62,007 nucleotides of DNA, taken from positions 1 to 62,007 of the forward strand of contig NZ_MVDE01000029.1 in NCBI RefSeq assembly GCF_002843385.1, given 5' to 3'. Origin of the DNA: Labilibaculum manganireducens (GTDB lineage: Bacteria; Bacteroidota; Bacteroidia; Bacteroidales; Marinifilaceae). The translations under genes were made by a program, and so were the position numbers. The notes under the pieces are model-generated. The model worked only from the letters and a program-made list of their open reading frames with translations, had not been told where the DNA came from and did no database searches. Of this stretch, positions 17,755 to 25,081 are shown piece by piece; the first letter of the stretch is position 1, and every line of letters begins with the position of its first letter.

Positions 17755-19992
17755 ATGAAAAGCAGAAGACAGTTTTTGAAAATTAGTTCATTAAGTGCCG
17801 CCGGATTGGTTTTTGGTGGAGGATTATTGGAAACGTTTGCCGATAATCTACTGAAGAACAATCAATCTTATTTTAAAGGGCCTTATGATTTTGCGCGCAC
17901 TCCAACTTATTGCGAAGTATGTTTTTGGAAGTGTGCCGGATGGGTTCATAAGGATGAAAACGGTAGAATTAAGAAAATTATCGGAAACGATGACGACCCT
18001 AATTGCAACGGAAGATTTTGCCCGAGAGGTACCGGAGGTGTTGGAATGTATTTCGACAGAGATCGTTTGAAAACCCCTTTAATTAGAACTGATGTGAGGG
18101 GAAAACAATCATTTCGGGAAGCTACCTGGGATGAGGCTTTTGATTACATAGCTTCCAAAATGAACAAAATTAAAGAGGAGCATGGCCCGGAATGTACGGC
18201 CTTGTTTACTCACGGTTCAGGAGGTAAATATTTTGGTAATTTGTTAAAAGGCTTTGGTTCCAACAACATAGCTGCTCCTTCTTATGCACAATGTCGTGGC
18301 CCCCGCGAAGTAGCTTTTTTGGCTACCTTTGGACAAGGGATAAATTCTCCTGAAAATACGGACATCCGGGATACTAAATGTCTGGTGCTTATTGGATCGC
18401 ACTTGGGTGAGAATATGCACAACGGACAGGTTCAGGAAATGTCTGATGCGATTGATAAAGGGACAACTATAATTACTGTTGATCCTCGTTTTTCAACCGT
18501 TGCAGGAAAATCAAAGCATTGGTTGCCAATTAAACCATCAACAGATATTGCACTTCTTCTTTCGTGGATGAATGTGATCATAAATGAAGAATTATTTGAT
18601 AAAAAATATGTAGAGAAGTACACATTCGGTTTTGATCTGTTAAAAGCTTATGTGCAGCCATTTACCCCGGAGTGGGCTTACGGAATTACTACAATAAAAC
18701 CTCAGCAGATACGTGATACAGCCCATGAAATGGCAAATGCGGCTCCTGCAGTAATTGTTCATCCCGGCAGACATGTTACCTGGTATGGAGATGATACACA
18801 AAGATTACGTGCAGTGGCTATTTTAAATGCTCTGCTAGGTAGTTGGGGACGAAGAGGTGGATTTTATAATCCGGAGAAAGCTTCTGTTCCTCATTTTCAT
18901 TTACCTGATTTTCCAAAACCAAATAAGAACTGGCGTGATGCCATGGGAGGGAAATATAAGCTTGCTGATTTAGCACTTGCTTCTGGTGTATGTCAGGCAA
19001 CAATACCAAGTCCGGAAATGAGTTGTTCAATTAAGGGGTGGATCGTGAATGGAACCAATCTGATTAATACCTTGCCGGATCAAAAGAAAACCATTGCAGC
19101 TATTCAAGCTCTTGATTTATTGGTGGTAGTAGATACCATGCCAATGGAAATTACTGGTTATGCCGATGTGGTTCTGCCAGAGTGTACTTATCTGGAAAGA
19201 TATGATTCTTTACGGATATCGCAGGGAAGAGTCCCCAGTATTGCACTAAGAATGCCGGCAGTTGATCCTTTGTACAATACAAAACCTGCCTTTTGGATGG
19301 CTCGTGAACTGGCTAAGAAATTAGATTTACTTCAATATTTCCCATTTGAAACCATAGAAGAAGAGATTGACTGGGAATTAAAACAAGTAGGTTCTTCATT
19401 GGAAGAAATGCAGCGCATAGGAGTGAAACTTTTAGATCGTGAAGCTGACGATTTGTATTTTGGTGAAGATGAGGATGTAGAATTCAATACCAATACAGGT
19501 AAAATAGAGTTGTACTCAACAGCTTTGGAGGAAGAAGGATTTGATCCGTTTCCGGTGTTTACTCAGCATCCGGAACCCGATAGTGGTTTTTATCGCTTAA
19601 TATATGGCCGAGCACCAATGCATACTTTTAGCCGAACGGCTAATAATCCAAATCTTACTGATTTAATGGACGAAAATTCGGTTTGGGTGAATCCTAAAGT
19701 GGCTAAGGTATGGGATTTGAAAAACGATCAGTACGTTTATTTAGAAAATCAGGATGGAGTAATTTCGGACTTTAAAATAAAAGTACGAATAACGGAACGT
19801 ATCCGATGGGATTCTGTTTATATGGTTCATGGTTTTGGACACGCCGATAAACGCATGACAAGAGCCTTTGGAAAAGGAGTGAGCGATACCCAGATGATTA
19901 CCAATGTAATGATTGATCCAATAATGGGAGGAACAGGAATGCGCGGGAATTTTGTGACGTTTCGATTTGATAACAAAAAAGCGGAGGTGTAA
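17755..19992 (+). CDS. Molybdopterin oxidoreductase, PsrA/PhsA-like catalytic subunit
   Basis: A 745-residue DMSO-reductase-family enzyme of the polysulfide/thiosulfate (or related tetrathionate/arsenate) reductase type. It has a canonical Tat signal (MKSRRQFLK followed by a hydrophobic stretch), so it is folded with its cofactor and exported. The [4Fe-4S] ligands are Cys53, Cys56, Cys60 and Cys89 (CEVCFWKC and FCPRGTGG). The likely molybdenum ligand is Cys180 in SYAQCRGPRE. C-terminal motifs include YGRAPMHTFSRTANNP. The next genes encode the ferredoxin and membrane subunits, completing a PsrABC-like complex on the periplasmic side that takes electrons from menaquinol. The exact substrate cannot be fixed; the sulfur-handling neighbours favour polysulfide, thiosulfate or tetrathionate. 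Confidence 0.93.
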   Translation: MKSRRQFLKISSLSAAGLVFGGGLLETFADNLLKNNQSYFKGPYDFARTPTYCEVCFWKCAGWVHKDENGRIKKIIGNDDDPNCNGRFCPRGTGGVGMYFDRDRLKTPLIRTDVRGKQSFREATWDEAFDYIASKMNKIKEEHGPECTALFTHGSGGKYFGNLLKGFGSNNIAAPSYAQCRGPREVAFLATFGQGINSPENTDIRDTKCLVLIGSHLGENMHNGQVQEMSDAIDKGTTIITVDPRFSTVAGKSKHWLPIKPSTDIALLLSWMNVIINEELFDKKYVEKYTFGFDLLKAYVQPFTPEWAYGITTIKPQQIRDTAHEMANAAPAVIVHPGRHVTWYGDDTQRLRAVAILNALLGSWGRRGGFYNPEKASVPHFHLPDFPKPNKNWRDAMGGKYKLADLALASGVCQATIPSPEMSCSIKGWIVNGTNLINTLPDQKKTIAAIQALDLLVVVDTMPMEITGYADVVLPECTYLERYDSLRISQGRVPSIALRMPAVDPLYNTKPAFWMARELAKKLDLLQYFPFETIEEEIDWELKQVGSSLEEMQRIGVKLLDREADDLYFGEDEDVEFNTNTGKIELYSTALEEEGFDPFPVFTQHPEPDSGFYRLIYGRAPMHTFSRTANNPNLTDLMDENSVWVNPKVAKVWDLKNDQYVYLENQDGVISDFKIKVRITERIRWDSVYMVHGFGHADKRMTRAFGKGVSDTQMITNVMIDPIMGGTGMRGNFVTFRFDNKKAEV

Positions 19993-19995
19993 GCT

Positions 19996-20529
19996 ATGAG
20001 ATATGCAATGGCTATTGATACGAAAAAGTGTGTAGGCTGCAGCGACTGCGTAGTAGCTTGCCAAACCGAAAATGATGTCCCTATTGGTCACTGCCGTGAT
20101 TGGGTGGTGGAAGTAATGGATGGAACATATCCTCAATTGGAAATTGAATTGCGTTCCGAACGGTGTAATCATTGTAAAAATTCACCTTGCGTGCGTTGTT
20201 GCCCAACCGGAGCCAGTCATTATTCCGATGGAGGAATTGTATTGGTTACTAAGAATGAATGTATTGGCTGCAGTGCCTGTATTACATCATGCCCTTATGA
20301 TGCAAGATATGTTCATCCCGATGGATATGTGGATAAATGTACATTTTGTTTGCACAGGGTGAAAAAAGGAATGCAACCTGCCTGTGTCGCAGTTTGCCCT
20401 ACAAAATGCATGTATTTTGGTGATTTGGATGATCCAGGAAGTGAGGTTTCCGAAGTGTTGAAAAAACGAAAGTACAAAACCTTAATTCCTGAAGCAGGAA
20501 CAAAACCTCAATTGTATTTCCTAATCTGA
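19996..20529 (+). CDS. PsrB-like four-cluster ferredoxin subunit
   Basis: A 177-residue iron-sulfur protein that passes electrons between the membrane subunit and the molybdoenzyme. Four [4Fe-4S] clusters are indicated by the cysteine groups: CVGCSDCVVAC near the N-terminus, CNHCKNSPCVRCCP, CIGCSACITSCP and CTFC with ACVAVCPTKC. This is the DmsB/PsrB/NrfC pattern. It has no signal of its own, so it is presumably exported together with the Tat-bearing catalytic subunit. It starts three bases after the catalytic gene stop. Confidence 0.95.
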   Translation: MRYAMAIDTKKCVGCSDCVVACQTENDVPIGHCRDWVVEVMDGTYPQLEIELRSERCNHCKNSPCVRCCPTGASHYSDGGIVLVTKNECIGCSACITSCPYDARYVHPDGYVDKCTFCLHRVKKGMQPACVAVCPTKCMYFGDLDDPGSEVSEVLKKRKYKTLIPEAGTKPQLYFLI

Positions 20530-20542
20530 TAAAACTAACAAA

Positions 20543-21484
20543 ATGAGAGAAGAAATAATTGTAAGTGGAAGAAATAACCCACTCATCGATCCTCAGTTAC
20601 ATGTTTGGCACTGGGAAATACCAACTTATTTGTTTTTGGGTGGTTTGGCGGCAGGTGTGATGTTTTTTGCGGCCTTGTATTATCTGAGAGGCAGAGAAAA
20701 TGATTACCGGACAGCCGTGAAATTAGCGCCAATGATAGCTCCAATTGCTTTGGCTTTAGGCCTTATCGCTTTGTTTCTAGATCTACATCACAAACTATAT
20801 TTTTGGAGATTATATACTACCATCAGACTGGAATCTCCAATGTCGTGGGGAGCGTGGACTTTAATGATTGTTACACCTGTTTCGATTATTTGGAGTGCTC
20901 TTCATATTAAGGAACTATTTCCAAATTGGGATTGGAAGTTTGATTTTGCGAAAGAGCTTATTGGTTTTTTTGAGAAAAACAAGAAAGTATTAGCCTGGAT
21001 CATGTTGATTTCATCGGCGATACTTGGAATTTATACCGGAATTTTATTTTCTGCATTTAATGCAAGACCATTGTGGAATACATCTATTATGGGGCCTTTA
21101 TTTTTAGCTTCCGGATTATCGGCAGGTTCGGCTGTTGTAATCTGGATGTCAAAAAATCATGCAGAGCGTAAGCGGTTTGCTCAATTGGATCTAATGATTA
21201 TTGGAATCGAACTATTTCTGATTATTCACATGTTCATGGGATTTTTGGCTAGTACTCAAGTTCAAATTGACGCTGTAAATTTATTTTTAGGAGGTCCTTA
21301 CACAGCTTCATTCTGGGGATTTGTAGTCATTTTAGGGATGATTGTTCCTGCAATACTGGAAGGTCTGGAATTAAAAGGGTATAAAATACCTGTCGCCATT
21401 CCAGTTGTCTTGGTTCTGTTTGGAAGTGTAATGCTTCGATTCATTATTTCGAATGCAGGACAGGCTAGTCGCTGGCTTTATTGA
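20543..21484 (+). CDS. NrfD/PsrC-like membrane quinol-oxidising subunit
   Basis: An integral membrane protein of 313 residues with eight or nine hydrophobic helices, of the NrfD/PsrC family. It anchors the reductase and oxidises menaquinol. Recognisable segments are HWEIPTYLFLGGLAAGVMFF near the first helix, LDLHHKLYFWRLY and LESPMSWGAWTLM. The early helix with PTYLFLGG and the SPMSWG loop are typical of PsrC rather than of DmsC. It follows the ferredoxin gene by 13 bases. Confidence 0.93.
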   Translation: MREEIIVSGRNNPLIDPQLHVWHWEIPTYLFLGGLAAGVMFFAALYYLRGRENDYRTAVKLAPMIAPIALALGLIALFLDLHHKLYFWRLYTTIRLESPMSWGAWTLMIVTPVSIIWSALHIKELFPNWDWKFDFAKELIGFFEKNKKVLAWIMLISSAILGIYTGILFSAFNARPLWNTSIMGPLFLASGLSAGSAVVIWMSKNHAERKRFAQLDLMIIGIELFLIIHMFMGFLASTQVQIDAVNLFLGGPYTASFWGFVVILGMIVPAILEGLELKGYKIPVAIPVVLVLFGSVMLRFIISNAGQASRWLY

Positions 21485-21529: not shown

Positions 21530-22054
21530 ATGAGCGAAGTGAAAAAAACAAAATACCTAAACCCATATGTTGGTGGGGTATTGCTAGGTCTCGTACTTTT
21601 GGCCGCCAATTTTGTTTCTGGTCGCGGACTAGGTGCAAGTGGTGCAATAAAAAGTGCAGTGGTTACTACTGTAAGTTTGGTTATGCCTTCTCACGTTGAA
21701 AACTCTGCTTTTTATACTGAATACAAAGAATCTCATCCCGGCAACCTAATGAAATCATGGTTGGTTTTCGAAATGATAGGTGTTTTAATTGGAGGGTTTC
21801 TTTCAGGAGCTTTTGCAAAACGCTTAAAATTTAAGGTTGAGCATTCACCTAAAATTACTTCTAAGAGAAGAATAATATTTGCCGTTTTGGGAGGTGTATT
21901 ATTTGGTTTTGGATCTCAGTTGGGAAGAGGTTGTACCAGTGGATCAGCCTTAAGTGGTATGGCTGTTTTATCGGTAGGAGGATTTCTTACCATGGCGTTT
22001 ATTTTTGGAACAGCTTTCGCCTTAGCTTACTTTTTCCGTAAAAACTGGATCTAA
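21530..22054 (+). CDS. YeeE/YedE half-transporter (PmpA/TsuA-like, first half)
   Basis: A 174-residue membrane protein with four or five helices, one half of the YeeE/YedE family. Full-length TsuA-type members import thiosulfate through cysteine-lined pores. The family motif GSQLGRGCTSGSALSGMAVL carries Cys135. An earlier glycine-rich segment, GRGLGASGA, lacks the cysteine that some members have. The other half is encoded next, eight bases later. The split form resembles PmpA/PmpB pairs, which were linked to sulfur-compound transport. Confidence 0.9.
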   Translation: MSEVKKTKYLNPYVGGVLLGLVLLAANFVSGRGLGASGAIKSAVVTTVSLVMPSHVENSAFYTEYKESHPGNLMKSWLVFEMIGVLIGGFLSGAFAKRLKFKVEHSPKITSKRRIIFAVLGGVLFGFGSQLGRGCTSGSALSGMAVLSVGGFLTMAFIFGTAFALAYFFRKNWI

Positions 22055-22061
22055 ATTTTAA

Positions 22062-22673
22062 ATGTATTTAAACTTATTTGTTATGGGACCATTAATAGTT
22101 AACGAAATAATTTCACCAAACACCAATTTGCTAATTGCGATGCTAATTGGAATCGGGTTTGGTTTTGTATTGGAATCAAGTGGATTCTCATCTAGTCGTA
22201 AGTTAGCAGGAATGTTTTATGGCTACGATACCACAGTATTAAAAGTGTTTTTTACAGCAGCAATTACTGCAATGATCGGTTTGTTGTTTTTCAGTCTGTT
22301 CGGATGGATAGATTTGAGTTATGTCTATGTTAATCCAACTTACTTAACTTCAGCTATGGTTGGAGGTGCAGTAATGGGAGCTGGTTTTATTATTGGAGGA
22401 TTTTGTCCCGGCACTGCTTTTTGTGCATTGTCAATAGGTAAATTGGATGCATTGGCATTTATAGGTGGTTTAGTTCTCGGAATTATTTTCTTTACAGAAG
22501 GTTACCCTATGTGGGAGGATTTGTATAAAGCCAACTTTATGGGCACACCAACAATGAACGAATTGCTCGATATTCCTCGCGGAATATTTGCTTTGGGATT
22601 AATTTTGGCGGCTTTTGCTATGTTCTGGGTAGGCGAATGGGCTGAGAAAAAATTTCCCCGTGAGGAGTATTAA
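22062..22673 (+). CDS. YeeE/YedE half-transporter (PmpB-like, second half)
   Basis: A 203-residue membrane protein with about six helices, completing the pair. The cysteine motif GGFCPGTAFCALSIGKLDA holds Cys115 and Cys121, as in TsuA-type pores. GFVLESSGFSSSRKLAGMFYG near the N-terminus is the second conserved segment. The start may instead be the ATG seven codons later. Adjacent to the PsrABC-like genes, the pair probably moves thiosulfate or another reduced sulfur species across the inner membrane. Confidence 0.9.
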   Translation: MYLNLFVMGPLIVNEIISPNTNLLIAMLIGIGFGFVLESSGFSSSRKLAGMFYGYDTTVLKVFFTAAITAMIGLLFFSLFGWIDLSYVYVNPTYLTSAMVGGAVMGAGFIIGGFCPGTAFCALSIGKLDALAFIGGLVLGIIFFTEGYPMWEDLYKANFMGTPTMNELLDIPRGIFALGLILAAFAMFWVGEWAEKKFPREEY

Positions 22674-22852: not shown

Positions 22853-23473
22853 ATGAAAATGAGATTGATATTGGCATCTGTATTTATTCCATTAGGAATT
22901 ATTATTGCTGCAGTGCCCGAAAATACAACCAAGCCGTTTCGTTTAACTGCTGGTGAATTACTAAACGAGATACATGAAGGAACTCAATTTATAAGCACCG
23001 ATCAAATCGCTGATATGTTAGTGCAAAAAGATCCAAGTCTTCAATTAATTGATGTTCGTACTCAGGCAGAGTTTGAAAAATATAGTCTTCCGGGATCTGT
23101 TAATATCCCTCTTTCTGATCTTTTATCAGAAGAATGGAATGATTTTTTGGATCAAGGTGTAAAAATGAATGTGTTTTATTCCAATGGGAATTTGAAGGCA
23201 AATGAGGCTTGGATGATTACTCGTCAGTTGGGTTTTAAGAATAATTACGTTCTTCAGGGAGGTTTAAATTATTGGGCCGAAACAATTCTTAATCCACAAG
23301 CTCCAAAATCTGTTCTTGCTGATGATGAAATTGCAAAATACGATTTCCGTAAAGGGGCAAGTGCTGCTCTTGGAGGTGGAAATGCTGTTGTTTCTAATAG
23401 TACTGAAGGTAAAACAGCAAAGCCACCTATTGTAAAAAAGAAAAAGAAGAAAAAAGTCGCTGGAGGGTGCTAA
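22853..23473 (+). CDS. Rhodanese-like protein lacking the usual active-site cysteine, with C-terminal Cys
   Basis: A 206-residue protein with a weak N-terminal hydrophobic signal (about 1-20) and a rhodanese domain (about 45-150: LIDVRTQAEFEKYSLPGSVN, QLGFKNNYVLQGGLNYW). The catalytic loop, normally with cysteine after VVY, reads VFYSNGNLKANEA, so Ser110 occupies the cysteine position. The domain is followed by a flexible tail of about 50 residues, rich in Gly, Ala, Ser and Lys, ending in a lysine run and VAGGC. Cys206, the final residue, is the only cysteine in the protein. It is the last gene of the reductase and transporter run, with a terminator behind. Loss of classical sulfurtransferase activity is expected; a sulfur-carrier role for the tail is a hypothesis. 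Confidence 0.9.
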   Translation: MKMRLILASVFIPLGIIIAAVPENTTKPFRLTAGELLNEIHEGTQFISTDQIADMLVQKDPSLQLIDVRTQAEFEKYSLPGSVNIPLSDLLSEEWNDFLDQGVKMNVFYSNGNLKANEAWMITRQLGFKNNYVLQGGLNYWAETILNPQAPKSVLADDEIAKYDFRKGASAALGGGNAVVSNSTEGKTAKPPIVKKKKKKKVAGGC

Positions 23474-23489
23474 TTTTTGCATTCTTATT

Positions 23490-23529
23490 AAAAAGCCTTT
23501 TCGATTAGTTTCGGAAAGGCTTTTTTTTT
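23490..23529 (+). terminator. Terminator after the rhodanese gene
   Basis: A 14-15 bp stem (AAAAAGCCTTTTCGA with TTCGGAAAGGCTTTTT, one G-T pair) followed by a long T run. It separates the reductase run from the outer-membrane gene. Confidence 0.92.
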
Positions 23530-23818: not shown

Positions 23819-25081
23819 ATGAAAAATACTTTTAAGATTGTTTTTTCGGCTCTAATTGTATTGGCTGGAATCTTTTCTACTCAGTCTGTTAAGGCAACAG
23901 ATGGGTATTTTGGTGTGGGTTACGGCGCGCAAAATAAAGGTTTAGCTGGTGCTGGTATCGCATGGTATCAAAATTCATTAATCAACGGTAATCCTGCGGG
24001 GCATGTTTTTCTGGGAAAACAATATCAGGTTGGTGTTGGGTTTTTTAACCCTAATCGTGAATATACAGTTACAGGAAATCCTTCTGGAGCGCCAGCTTTC
24101 GGATTAACTCCTGGAAATGTGAAAAGTGACTCAAAATTATTCTTAATGCCGAGCATGGGTGCCAATTGGATGATCAATGAAAAAAGTAGTTTCTCTGCAA
24201 CTCTTTTTGGTAATGGAGGGATGAATACTGATTATCCTACACAGACATTTTACGATCAGAGTTCTTCAACTACTGGTGTGGATCTAGGACAGATGTTTTT
24301 GGGTTTGACCTATTCAAGAAAAATAGCCGAGAAACACAGTTTTGGTATTACTGCTTTATTGGCTTATCAATATTTTGAAGCAAAAGGTTTATCCGCATTT
24401 AAACCAATGTCTGGTGCTCCAAACAAATTAACAAACAATGGTCACGATAGTGGTTTTGGTTATGGAGTTAAGTTTGGATATATGGGTGAATTAGCAAAAG
24501 GATTGCATTTGGGAGCCAGTTATCAAACCATGTTGTACATGAGTGAATTTGATGATTATGCCGGTCTTTTTGCAGAGCAGGGAGATTTCAATATTCCATC
24601 TACATGGACTGTTGGTTTGGCTTATGAAATCAACGAAGATTGGGCTGTAATGGCAGATTACAAAGTAATCAATTATACTGATGTGGCTTCAGTTTCCAAT
24701 AAGATGGATCCGATGGCATTTGCAACAGCTCCGCTTGGATCAGATAAAGGTGCAGGTTTTGGATGGCAAGACATAAATGTTTGGAAGTTCGGAGTTGAAT
24801 TTGCCGGTGTTAATACATGGACTTTTCGTGGGGGATACTCGCATACAGATCAGCCAGTTCCAAATTCAGAAGTAATGTTCAATATTTTGGCTCCCGGAGT
24901 TATTGAAGATCACATTACTTTAGGTTGTTCAAAAACTTTGGGTGATTCTGGAAAAGCTCTTCACTTGGCATTGGTTTATGCATTGCCATCAAGTGTTAAA
25001 GGAATGAATCCCATGGATCCTGCTCAAACAATTGAATTGGAAATGAATCAATTTGAAGTAGAAATCGCATTTACTTTTTAA
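23819..25081 (+). CDS. FadL/OmpP1-type outer-membrane transport protein
   Basis: A 420-residue outer-membrane beta-barrel of the FadL/TodX/OmpP1 family, which imports hydrophobic compounds. A signal peptide (1-26, ending VKA) precedes the plug-like N-terminus TDGYFGVGYGAQNKGLAGAG with the family NPA motif in NGNPAGHVF. The rest is amphipathic strands, ending in the aromatic residue needed for barrel assembly (IAFTF). It lies after the sulfur genes on the same strand with its own 290-base upstream region and strong terminator. It may take up a hydrophobic sulfur compound, but fatty acids or aromatics are equally possible. Confidence 0.9.
   Translation: MKNTFKIVFSALIVLAGIFSTQSVKATDGYFGVGYGAQNKGLAGAGIAWYQNSLINGNPAGHVFLGKQYQVGVGFFNPNREYTVTGNPSGAPAFGLTPGNVKSDSKLFLMPSMGANWMINEKSSFSATLFGNGGMNTDYPTQTFYDQSSSTTGVDLGQMFLGLTYSRKIAEKHSFGITALLAYQYFEAKGLSAFKPMSGAPNKLTNNGHDSGFGYGVKFGYMGELAKGLHLGASYQTMLYMSEFDDYAGLFAEQGDFNIPSTWTVGLAYEINEDWAVMADYKVINYTDVASVSNKMDPMAFATAPLGSDKGAGFGWQDINVWKFGVEFAGVNTWTFRGGYSHTDQPVPNSEVMFNILAPGVIEDHITLGCSKTLGDSGKALHLALVYALPSSVKGMNPMDPAQTIELEMNQFEVEIAFTF

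Follow-up and report, generated by a model that had tools for sequence, protein, structure and literature searches.

A rhodanese-fold protein with a cysteine-less loop and a conserved terminal cysteine, linked to a split YeeE channel, as a candidate periplasmic sulfur carrier

The window, i.e., the whole analyzed stretch of 62,007 nucleotides from a contig of Labilibaculum manganireducens, contains an operon in which genes for a PsrABC-like reductase are followed by those for two YeeE-type proteins, YeeE1 and YeeE2, and for a rhodanese-like protein (cf. Table 1). The best NCBIfam match of the molybdopterin subunit was the thiosulfate reductase PhsA, with 472.8 bits, which is below the cut-off of 694. 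YeeE1 and YeeE2 match two halves of PF04143, as do PmpA and PmpB, the proteins that they resemble and for which a heterodimer has been proposed (PMC11582611). The cysteine of the GRGCTSG motif in YeeE1 aligns with that of GGCNIGH in S. thermophila TsuA, in which three conserved cysteines serve thiosulfate transport (PMC11582611), and YeeE1 matched TsuA chains among solved structures with E values of 0.0007-0.001; a phmmer search of solved structures with YeeE2 retrieved no YeeE. By eye, an inverted repeat with a T run behind it can be seen just past the stop codon of the rhodanese gene (23490-23529). It resembles a terminator, in which case the rhodanese gene would be the last of the operon. 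The operon is followed by a gene for a FadL/OMPP1-type outer-membrane protein (23819-25081; PF03349), strong relatives of which lie beside the operon in loci L024-L029, L143, and L149. This protein might admit sulfur compounds.

Table 1 Positions in the window of the operon genes and of the features of the rhodanese-like protein
Feature	Position	Strand	Basis
PsrA/PhsA-like molybdopterin subunit, twin-arginine start SRRQFLK	17755..19992	+	PhsA NCBIfam
PsrB-like 4Fe-4S subunit	19996..20529	+	PF13247, E 5.3e-24
NrfD/PsrC-like membrane subunit	20543..21484	+	PF03916, E 3.7e-47
YeeE1, C-terminal part of PF04143 (PmpA-like half)	21530..22054	+	PF04143, E 3.1e-22
YeeE2, N-terminal part of PF04143 (PmpB-like half), with GGFCPGT	22062..22673	+	PF04143, E 8.2e-13
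Cys-less rhodanese with terminal GGC	22853..23473	+	ORF, PF00581, alignments
N-terminal hydrophobic helix, residues 3-20, after MKMR	22859..22912	+	AlphaFold2; fusion alignment; low-confidence fusion model
Rhodanese domain, residues 50-143	23000..23281	+	PF00581, E 1.4e-14; Foldseek
Ser110 codon at the catalytic-Cys position, loop YSNGNLK	23180..23182	+	alignments
Flexible tail, residues 174-206	23372..23470	+	AlphaFold2 pLDDT
Seven lysines, K195-K201	23435..23455	+	sequence
Cys206 codon	23468..23470	+	C in 67/67 rows of A2

The rhodanese gene, whose coordinates include the stop codon, encodes a protein of 206 amino acids (hereafter, the window protein) that ends in seven lysines followed by VAGGC and has its only cysteine, Cys206, as the last residue, just as a preceding sequence-only reading of this DNA had stated. 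That reading had also placed Ser110 where rhodaneses have their catalytic cysteine, and the alignments agree with it, as Ser110 faces the cysteine of FYCGGGFRS in PDB 6mxv and that of VYCRSGNRS in L036. A Pfam scan of the window protein matched PF00581 only, and Foldseek matched its model to rhodaneses such as 3gk5 (E 4.2e-6; TM score of 0.82 when normalized by target length). The window protein is a rhodanese by fold, not by catalytic residue. Its flexible part turned out to be shorter than the roughly 50 residues initially supposed and is nearer 33: AlphaFold2 predicted a helix at residues 157-173 (mean pLDDT of 88 for block 161-170), pLDDT fell below 50 only at 176-188, and blocks 191-200 and 201-206 had values of 65 and 57, respectively. 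By the positive-inside rule, the N-terminal helix would be oriented N-in/C-out, and the rhodanese domain should be periplasmic. This helix may be either a membrane anchor or a signal peptide; we prefer an anchor, because a helix occupies the corresponding position in YeeE2-rhodanese fusions. The closest named record belonged to Labilibaculum sp. K2S (99% protein identity, in a comparison that may exclude records of the own genome). Within the own genome there were 10 matches to PF00581, the window protein included, corresponding to eight further rhodanese proteins; all eight retain the loop cysteine in one or more of their rhodanese domains, and cysteine is the last residue of none. Since the other rhodaneses of the same genome have neither feature, the combination of a terminal cysteine with a Cys-less loop is not attributable to chance. 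Chance or a sequencing artefact as the origin of the lysine run was rejected as well, for the same end is present in isolates and MAGs.

Conservation was followed with a profile, A1 (13 rows, GGC in 13 of 13), which includes the tail and so favours tail-bearing matches. At E ≤ 1e-5 it gave 145 unique matches, ordinary rhodaneses included: 115 combined a loop without cysteine with a basic G(G/A)C end, 12 had neither loop cysteine nor tail, 12 had a loop cysteine without such an end, and six had a loop cysteine together with a basic tail. The tail flag in this count demands four basic residues, and nine of the 12 sequences flagged as having neither do end in GGC or in GGC plus one or two residues. 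After L060 had been excluded by name, filters for start codon, length, score, and redundancy left 92 candidates, 66 of which were aligned with the window protein (P0001) in alignment A2 (67 rows, 24-99% identical to the window protein). The invariant residues of A2 are limited to P22, D67, R69, G137, G205, and C206. Column 110 holds serine in 57 rows, glycine in five, alanine in four, and cysteine in a single one, so that 66 of 67 rows are without the loop cysteine, while terminal GC is present in all 67 (L060, with its tail out of frame, having been dropped beforehand). Homologues thus do not generally have the loop cysteine, the terminal one is conserved, and the expectation that the two features would be conserved together held. 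The chains end in GGC (43), EGC (10), GGCS (9), GGCG (2), GGCE (2), or DGC (1), and 56 of the 67 have no cysteine outside the last three residues. The tails are net positive over 25 residues in 65 of the 67 sequences, although some tails of the group end in KKEEEGGC or VEVEEGGC; the lysine run is common and not essential, with terminal GC as the fixed element. An in-frame terminal cysteine was missing from three matches, i.e., L060, L117 8560-9117, and L125 7768-8220, the latter two being absent from A2. In L060 (2040-2160), the rhodanese frame itself ends without cysteine and a neighbouring frame reads AVQGGCS, which means either a frameshift or an assembly error. In a subfamily (L073, L076-L079, L082, L083, L087-L091, and L093-L095), the basic residues are followed by a terminal EGC or DGC in place of GGC, and the loops read, e.g., YSEGG or YGNDD; PsrABC accompanies this subfamily in the wide regions fetched for it.

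The terminal motif could also be read as a sorting, lipidation, or processing signal and not as a working arm; its shortness and its position after basic residues would suit such a signal, and tails common to the proteins of one locus (see below) would fit a common processing enzyme. However, no hydrophobic stretch adjoins the motif, unlike in known C-terminal sorting tags, and an N-terminal helix or a channel half is already part of the protein. Moreover, among 6987 closed ORFs of at least 60 amino acids from 156 fetched sources (overlapping loci being counted repeatedly), a basic end of the G(G/A)C type was seen in 171, of which 162 matched the profile of the Cys-less rhodanese group. The other nine, judged by eye from the last 60 residues only, look spurious, which leaves no convincing protein with this end outside the group. 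We therefore hold a processing signal to be very improbable.

Of the 56 genomes of the family, 23 had a homologue of the rhodanese (E ≤ 1e-12), as did 118 of 295 of the order and 53 of 395 of the phylum (both at E ≤ 1e-15), with the own genome counted in each case. Homologues were also present in 25 of 100 genomes of the phylum to which L034, a Marinimicrobia MAG, belongs (E ≤ 1e-12). The best 20 of these 25 loci all have the YSNG loop and the GGC end, and 19 of the 20 contain matches to YeeE1 and YeeE2 within the fetched stretch, the exception, L171, beginning at a contig end. The Cys-less rhodanese hence occurs in sulfur loci both of Bacteroidota and of a phylum holding a Marinimicrobia genome. 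A search of 99 genomes from the phylum that includes the Nitrospiria MAG L037 gave no homologue, which by itself shows little.

The gene neighbourhood was compared in 61 regions (the window and L096-L155), all of them selected by a match to the rhodanese profile, which includes the tail; the queries for neighbouring genes were limited to the proteins of the window plus the octaheme and cytochrome b proteins from L133. YeeE1 was present in 60 of the 61 regions, and in 58 the rhodanese was directly downstream of YeeE2 (44) or fused to it (14). The other three were not scored as adjacent: L130 begins at a contig end, and in L148 and L153 stop-to-stop ORFs overlap YeeE2. All 58 rhodaneses adjacent or fused to YeeE2 end in GC plus zero to two residues, in regions that had been found with a tail-containing profile, and their loop residue is serine (43), alanine (7), glycine (7), or, in L125 8162-8776 alone, cysteine. 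The reductase is more variable. Within the stretches fetched, PsrABC was found in 43 regions, an octaheme tetrathionate reductase without PsrABC in 13, and neither in five, and the gene order YeeE1-YeeE2-rhodanese is kept in all three settings. The octaheme protein was recognized by TIGR04315 above the cut-off in L133, L146, and L154, and elsewhere by its similarity to the L133 protein; in L133 its gene is adjoined by one for a cytochrome b (PF01292), and similar ones occur in seven of the loci retrieved with YeeE2 (see below).

These data bear on the partner of the rhodanese. The sequence-only reading had pointed to the placement beside a sulfur reductase and sulfur transporters and had asked whether the tail can reach PsrA; the sulfur context is indeed constant across the regions, but the constant partner is the YeeE1/YeeE2 pair and not PsrA. 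Because the reductase varies (PsrABC or octaheme) while YeeE stays, the channel is the better candidate, and PsrA as the sole partner is weakened by the loci without PsrABC. It might still be argued that the protein is a shuttle in the manner of Sud, which would bind polysulfide in the periplasm and deliver it to the active site of PsrA, with YeeE as a mere neighbour that uses the same compounds. The predominance of PsrABC, in the same operon order, speaks for this, as does the report that periplasmic Sud of Wolinella speeds polysulfide respiration by PsrABC (PMC2628731). Against it are the 13 regions with an octaheme reductase and no PsrABC, the five with neither reductase, the near-constant presence of YeeE1, and the fact that the fusions join the rhodanese to YeeE2, and we consider a shuttle of this kind rather unlikely.

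The 61 regions had been picked through the rhodanese itself; to reduce this bias, we also searched with the YeeE2 of the window. In the family, the genomes with YeeE2 were precisely the 23 of 56 that have the rhodanese; in the order (295 genomes), YeeE2 was found in 120, the rhodanese in 118, and both in 117. The four order genomes with one gene only are accounted for by three divergent YeeE2-rhodanese fusions and one cut at a contig end. These divergent fusions (L191 1168-2373, L192 2104-3312, and L193 1733-2953) end in AGGLCG or AGGLCS, not in GGC, and adjoin an octaheme tetrathionate reductase. Nineteen places from the order search, hand-picked and weighted towards loci unread before, all contained a rhodanese, fused to YeeE2 in 14 and downstream of it in five. 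Eighteen of these rhodaneses were complete and 16 had the terminal cysteine (12 of 14 among the fusions); the two without it, L199 and L201, are both fusions, and the next rhodanese there ends in IGGC or LGGC. A class sample of 295 genomes gave YeeE2 matches in four besides the own genome: L187 and L188 are of the split type with a GGC-ended rhodanese downstream, and L189 and L190 contain a full-length YeeE (342 amino acids), with no GGC-ended rhodanese ORF in the stretch fetched.

Fusion was the rule with the octaheme reductase, where YeeE2 and the rhodanese form one reading frame in 13 of 13 regions, and L150 is a PsrABC region also scored as fused. The junction falls where the YeeE2 of the window ends, and in the 61-region set all 14 fused rhodaneses end in terminal GC. 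Alignment A3, by comparison, comprises 15 fusions for which a GGC-type end was a selection criterion, so its invariant GGC is no evidence. In the fusion model, which is poor in the channel part (mean pLDDT of 62.6), the tail could not be placed and no contact was modelled. The fusions also weigh on the idea that the terminal cysteine is a disulfide tether, which would lock the pseudo-rhodanese to YeeE or tie paralogues together and would carry no sulfur. With no other cysteine in 56 of the 67 rows of A2, a disulfide would have no partner in the same chain, and paralogues with common tails could be so tied; a fusion, however, needs no tether, yet the terminal cysteine is kept in 14 of 14 and in 12 of 14 fusions of the two sets. 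We give this idea little credence.

Many loci contain two or three rhodaneses in tandem. We compared the top two in 19 fetched loci chosen for having at least two tail-bearing rhodaneses, using the 14 residues before the motif. The mean tail identity was 6.7 of 14 within a locus versus 2.7 between loci, the within-locus mean was reached in none of 20000 permutations (a test that ignores relatedness and genome composition), and the partner from the own locus was the best tail match, ties allowed, in 14 of 19 loci. The rhodanese domains of the pairs are 21-35% identical, i.e., the tails have stayed alike within a locus while the domains have drifted apart. A locus-specific tail common to the tandem paralogues was seen in 13 of the 19 loci, e.g., KVVPIKKKKK[RK]KPEGGC in L129 and PVQHTRVVEGGC in L122; in the other six (L119, L120, L121, L124, L126, and L127) the tails are alike at no more than four of 14 positions, and these pairs count against a universal rule of shared tails. 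As the cause of shared tails, recent gene conversion has little support overall and fails as a general explanation, because 85 of the 183 residues shared by the 19 pairs have identical codons, against the 76.5 predicted from codon usage. Conversion is conceivable in L130 (12 identical codons versus 6.7 predicted) and L129 (10 versus 7.4), the loci with an excess. The wide regions also contain 12 long paralogues (>300 amino acids). Six of them, in L110, L112, L116, L124, L126, and L127, have GGC or GGCS at the end, which the other six (L108, L111, L117, L123, L125, and L129) lack; by Pfam, the ones in L108, L110, L124, and L126 have two rhodanese stretches each. Five of the six tailed long paralogues have a visible loop cysteine (that of L116 is not shown), and five, all but L124, match a lipobox pattern; L110, L112, L126, and L127 combine a lipobox and a loop cysteine with a GGC or GGCS end.

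The C-terminus of SoxY, a periplasmic sulfur carrier, is GGCGG. Its cysteine sits on a mobile "swinging arm" (PMC11237559), and the window protein resembles it in having the cysteine on a Gly-containing C-terminal arm (GGC in all rows of A1 and GC in all rows of A2), but differs in its fold, which is PF00581 only, without a SoxY-type domain, and in its setting, as the loci mapped with the queries named above adjoin reductases, not Sox enzymes. With the single-domain rhodaneses GlpE, PspE, and TSTD1 it shares the fold and the DVR motif, but it has no loop cysteine and has an added N-terminal helix and GGC tail. Sud of Wolinella succinogenes likewise has a rhodanese fold, with its working cysteine in the rhodanese loop. 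Sud is a periplasmic carrier linked to a Psr-type reductase (PMC2628731), and the link to PsrABC recurs in the window and in 43 of 61 regions in all; the window protein differs from it in being without the loop cysteine and in having its cysteine at the chain end. The window protein may work like SoxY or Sud, and it is a member of neither group. A channel combined with a carrier domain is found in the 8j4c chain named YeeE(TsuA)-YeeD(TsuB), and the rhodanese, adjacent or fused to YeeE in 58 of 61 regions and in 19 of 19 places found with YeeE2, is comparable to a TsuB-like carrier. TsuB, however, is a soluble cytoplasmic TusA-like protein (PMC11582611), whereas the window protein is a Cys-less rhodanese with a terminal cysteine, predicted to be periplasmic, and has no TusA-like domain.

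In the light of the descriptions of TsuA, PmpAB, and SoxT in PMC11582611, the conserved unit resembles a split YeeE channel equipped with a putative periplasmic donor of its own, in which a flexible arm bears the cysteine. Handover of SoxYZ-bound sulfur to the YeeE-like channel SoxT, along the SoxT cysteines, is considered conceivable there, and a protein-bound donor of sulfane sulfur for YeeE-type channels is discussed as conceivable and unproven (PMC11582611). The rhodanese family described here, genetically almost inseparable from the channel, often fused to it, and having one cysteine, is a candidate for such a donor. The rhodanese fold is known; the Cys-less loop combined with a terminal-Cys tail beside YeeE suggests an undescribed kind of sulfur carrier, and the combination of fold and tail was not found described in the open-licence full-text literature (preprints and most subscription papers lie outside it).

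We therefore propose, with a probability of roughly 0.55, that the protein is a periplasmic sulfur carrier whose reactive cysteine, no longer in the rhodanese pocket, now sits at the end of a swinging arm that serves YeeE. It would be a pseudo-enzyme with its reactive residue shifted from pocket to tail. The N-terminal helix would hold the rhodanese in the inner membrane beside the YeeE1/YeeE2 channel; gene adjacency, fusion, and co-occurrence show the link to the channel, while membrane side and physical contact are inferred. The Cys-less pocket would no longer catalyze on its own and would be kept as a docking or anion-binding site, because D67, R69, and G137 are invariant. The terminal cysteine, on its flexible and usually cationic arm, would take up sulfane sulfur or a thiosulfonate, either supplied by anions in the vicinity of the respiratory reductase or handed over by an active partner rhodanese, and would present it to the YeeE cysteines. 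Tandem paralogues with a common, locus-specific arm, as seen in 13 of 19 loci, would be expected if they dock at one site. A more tentative extension is a periplasmic sulfur bucket brigade, in which active lipoprotein rhodaneses, Cys-less membrane rhodaneses, and YeeE would pass sulfur on by means of co-evolving arms, the matching terminal-Cys arms of one locus would dock at a single site, and the arm sequence would set the pairing of carrier and channel; we regard it as possible. Finally, the same genome contains a large ORF with a rhodanese part (L156 105-2604), the other parts of which we take, by eye, to be CoA-disulfide-reductase-like, TusA-like (CGLQCPGP), and DsrE-like; its product is a possible cytoplasmic acceptor for sulfur arriving through YeeE.
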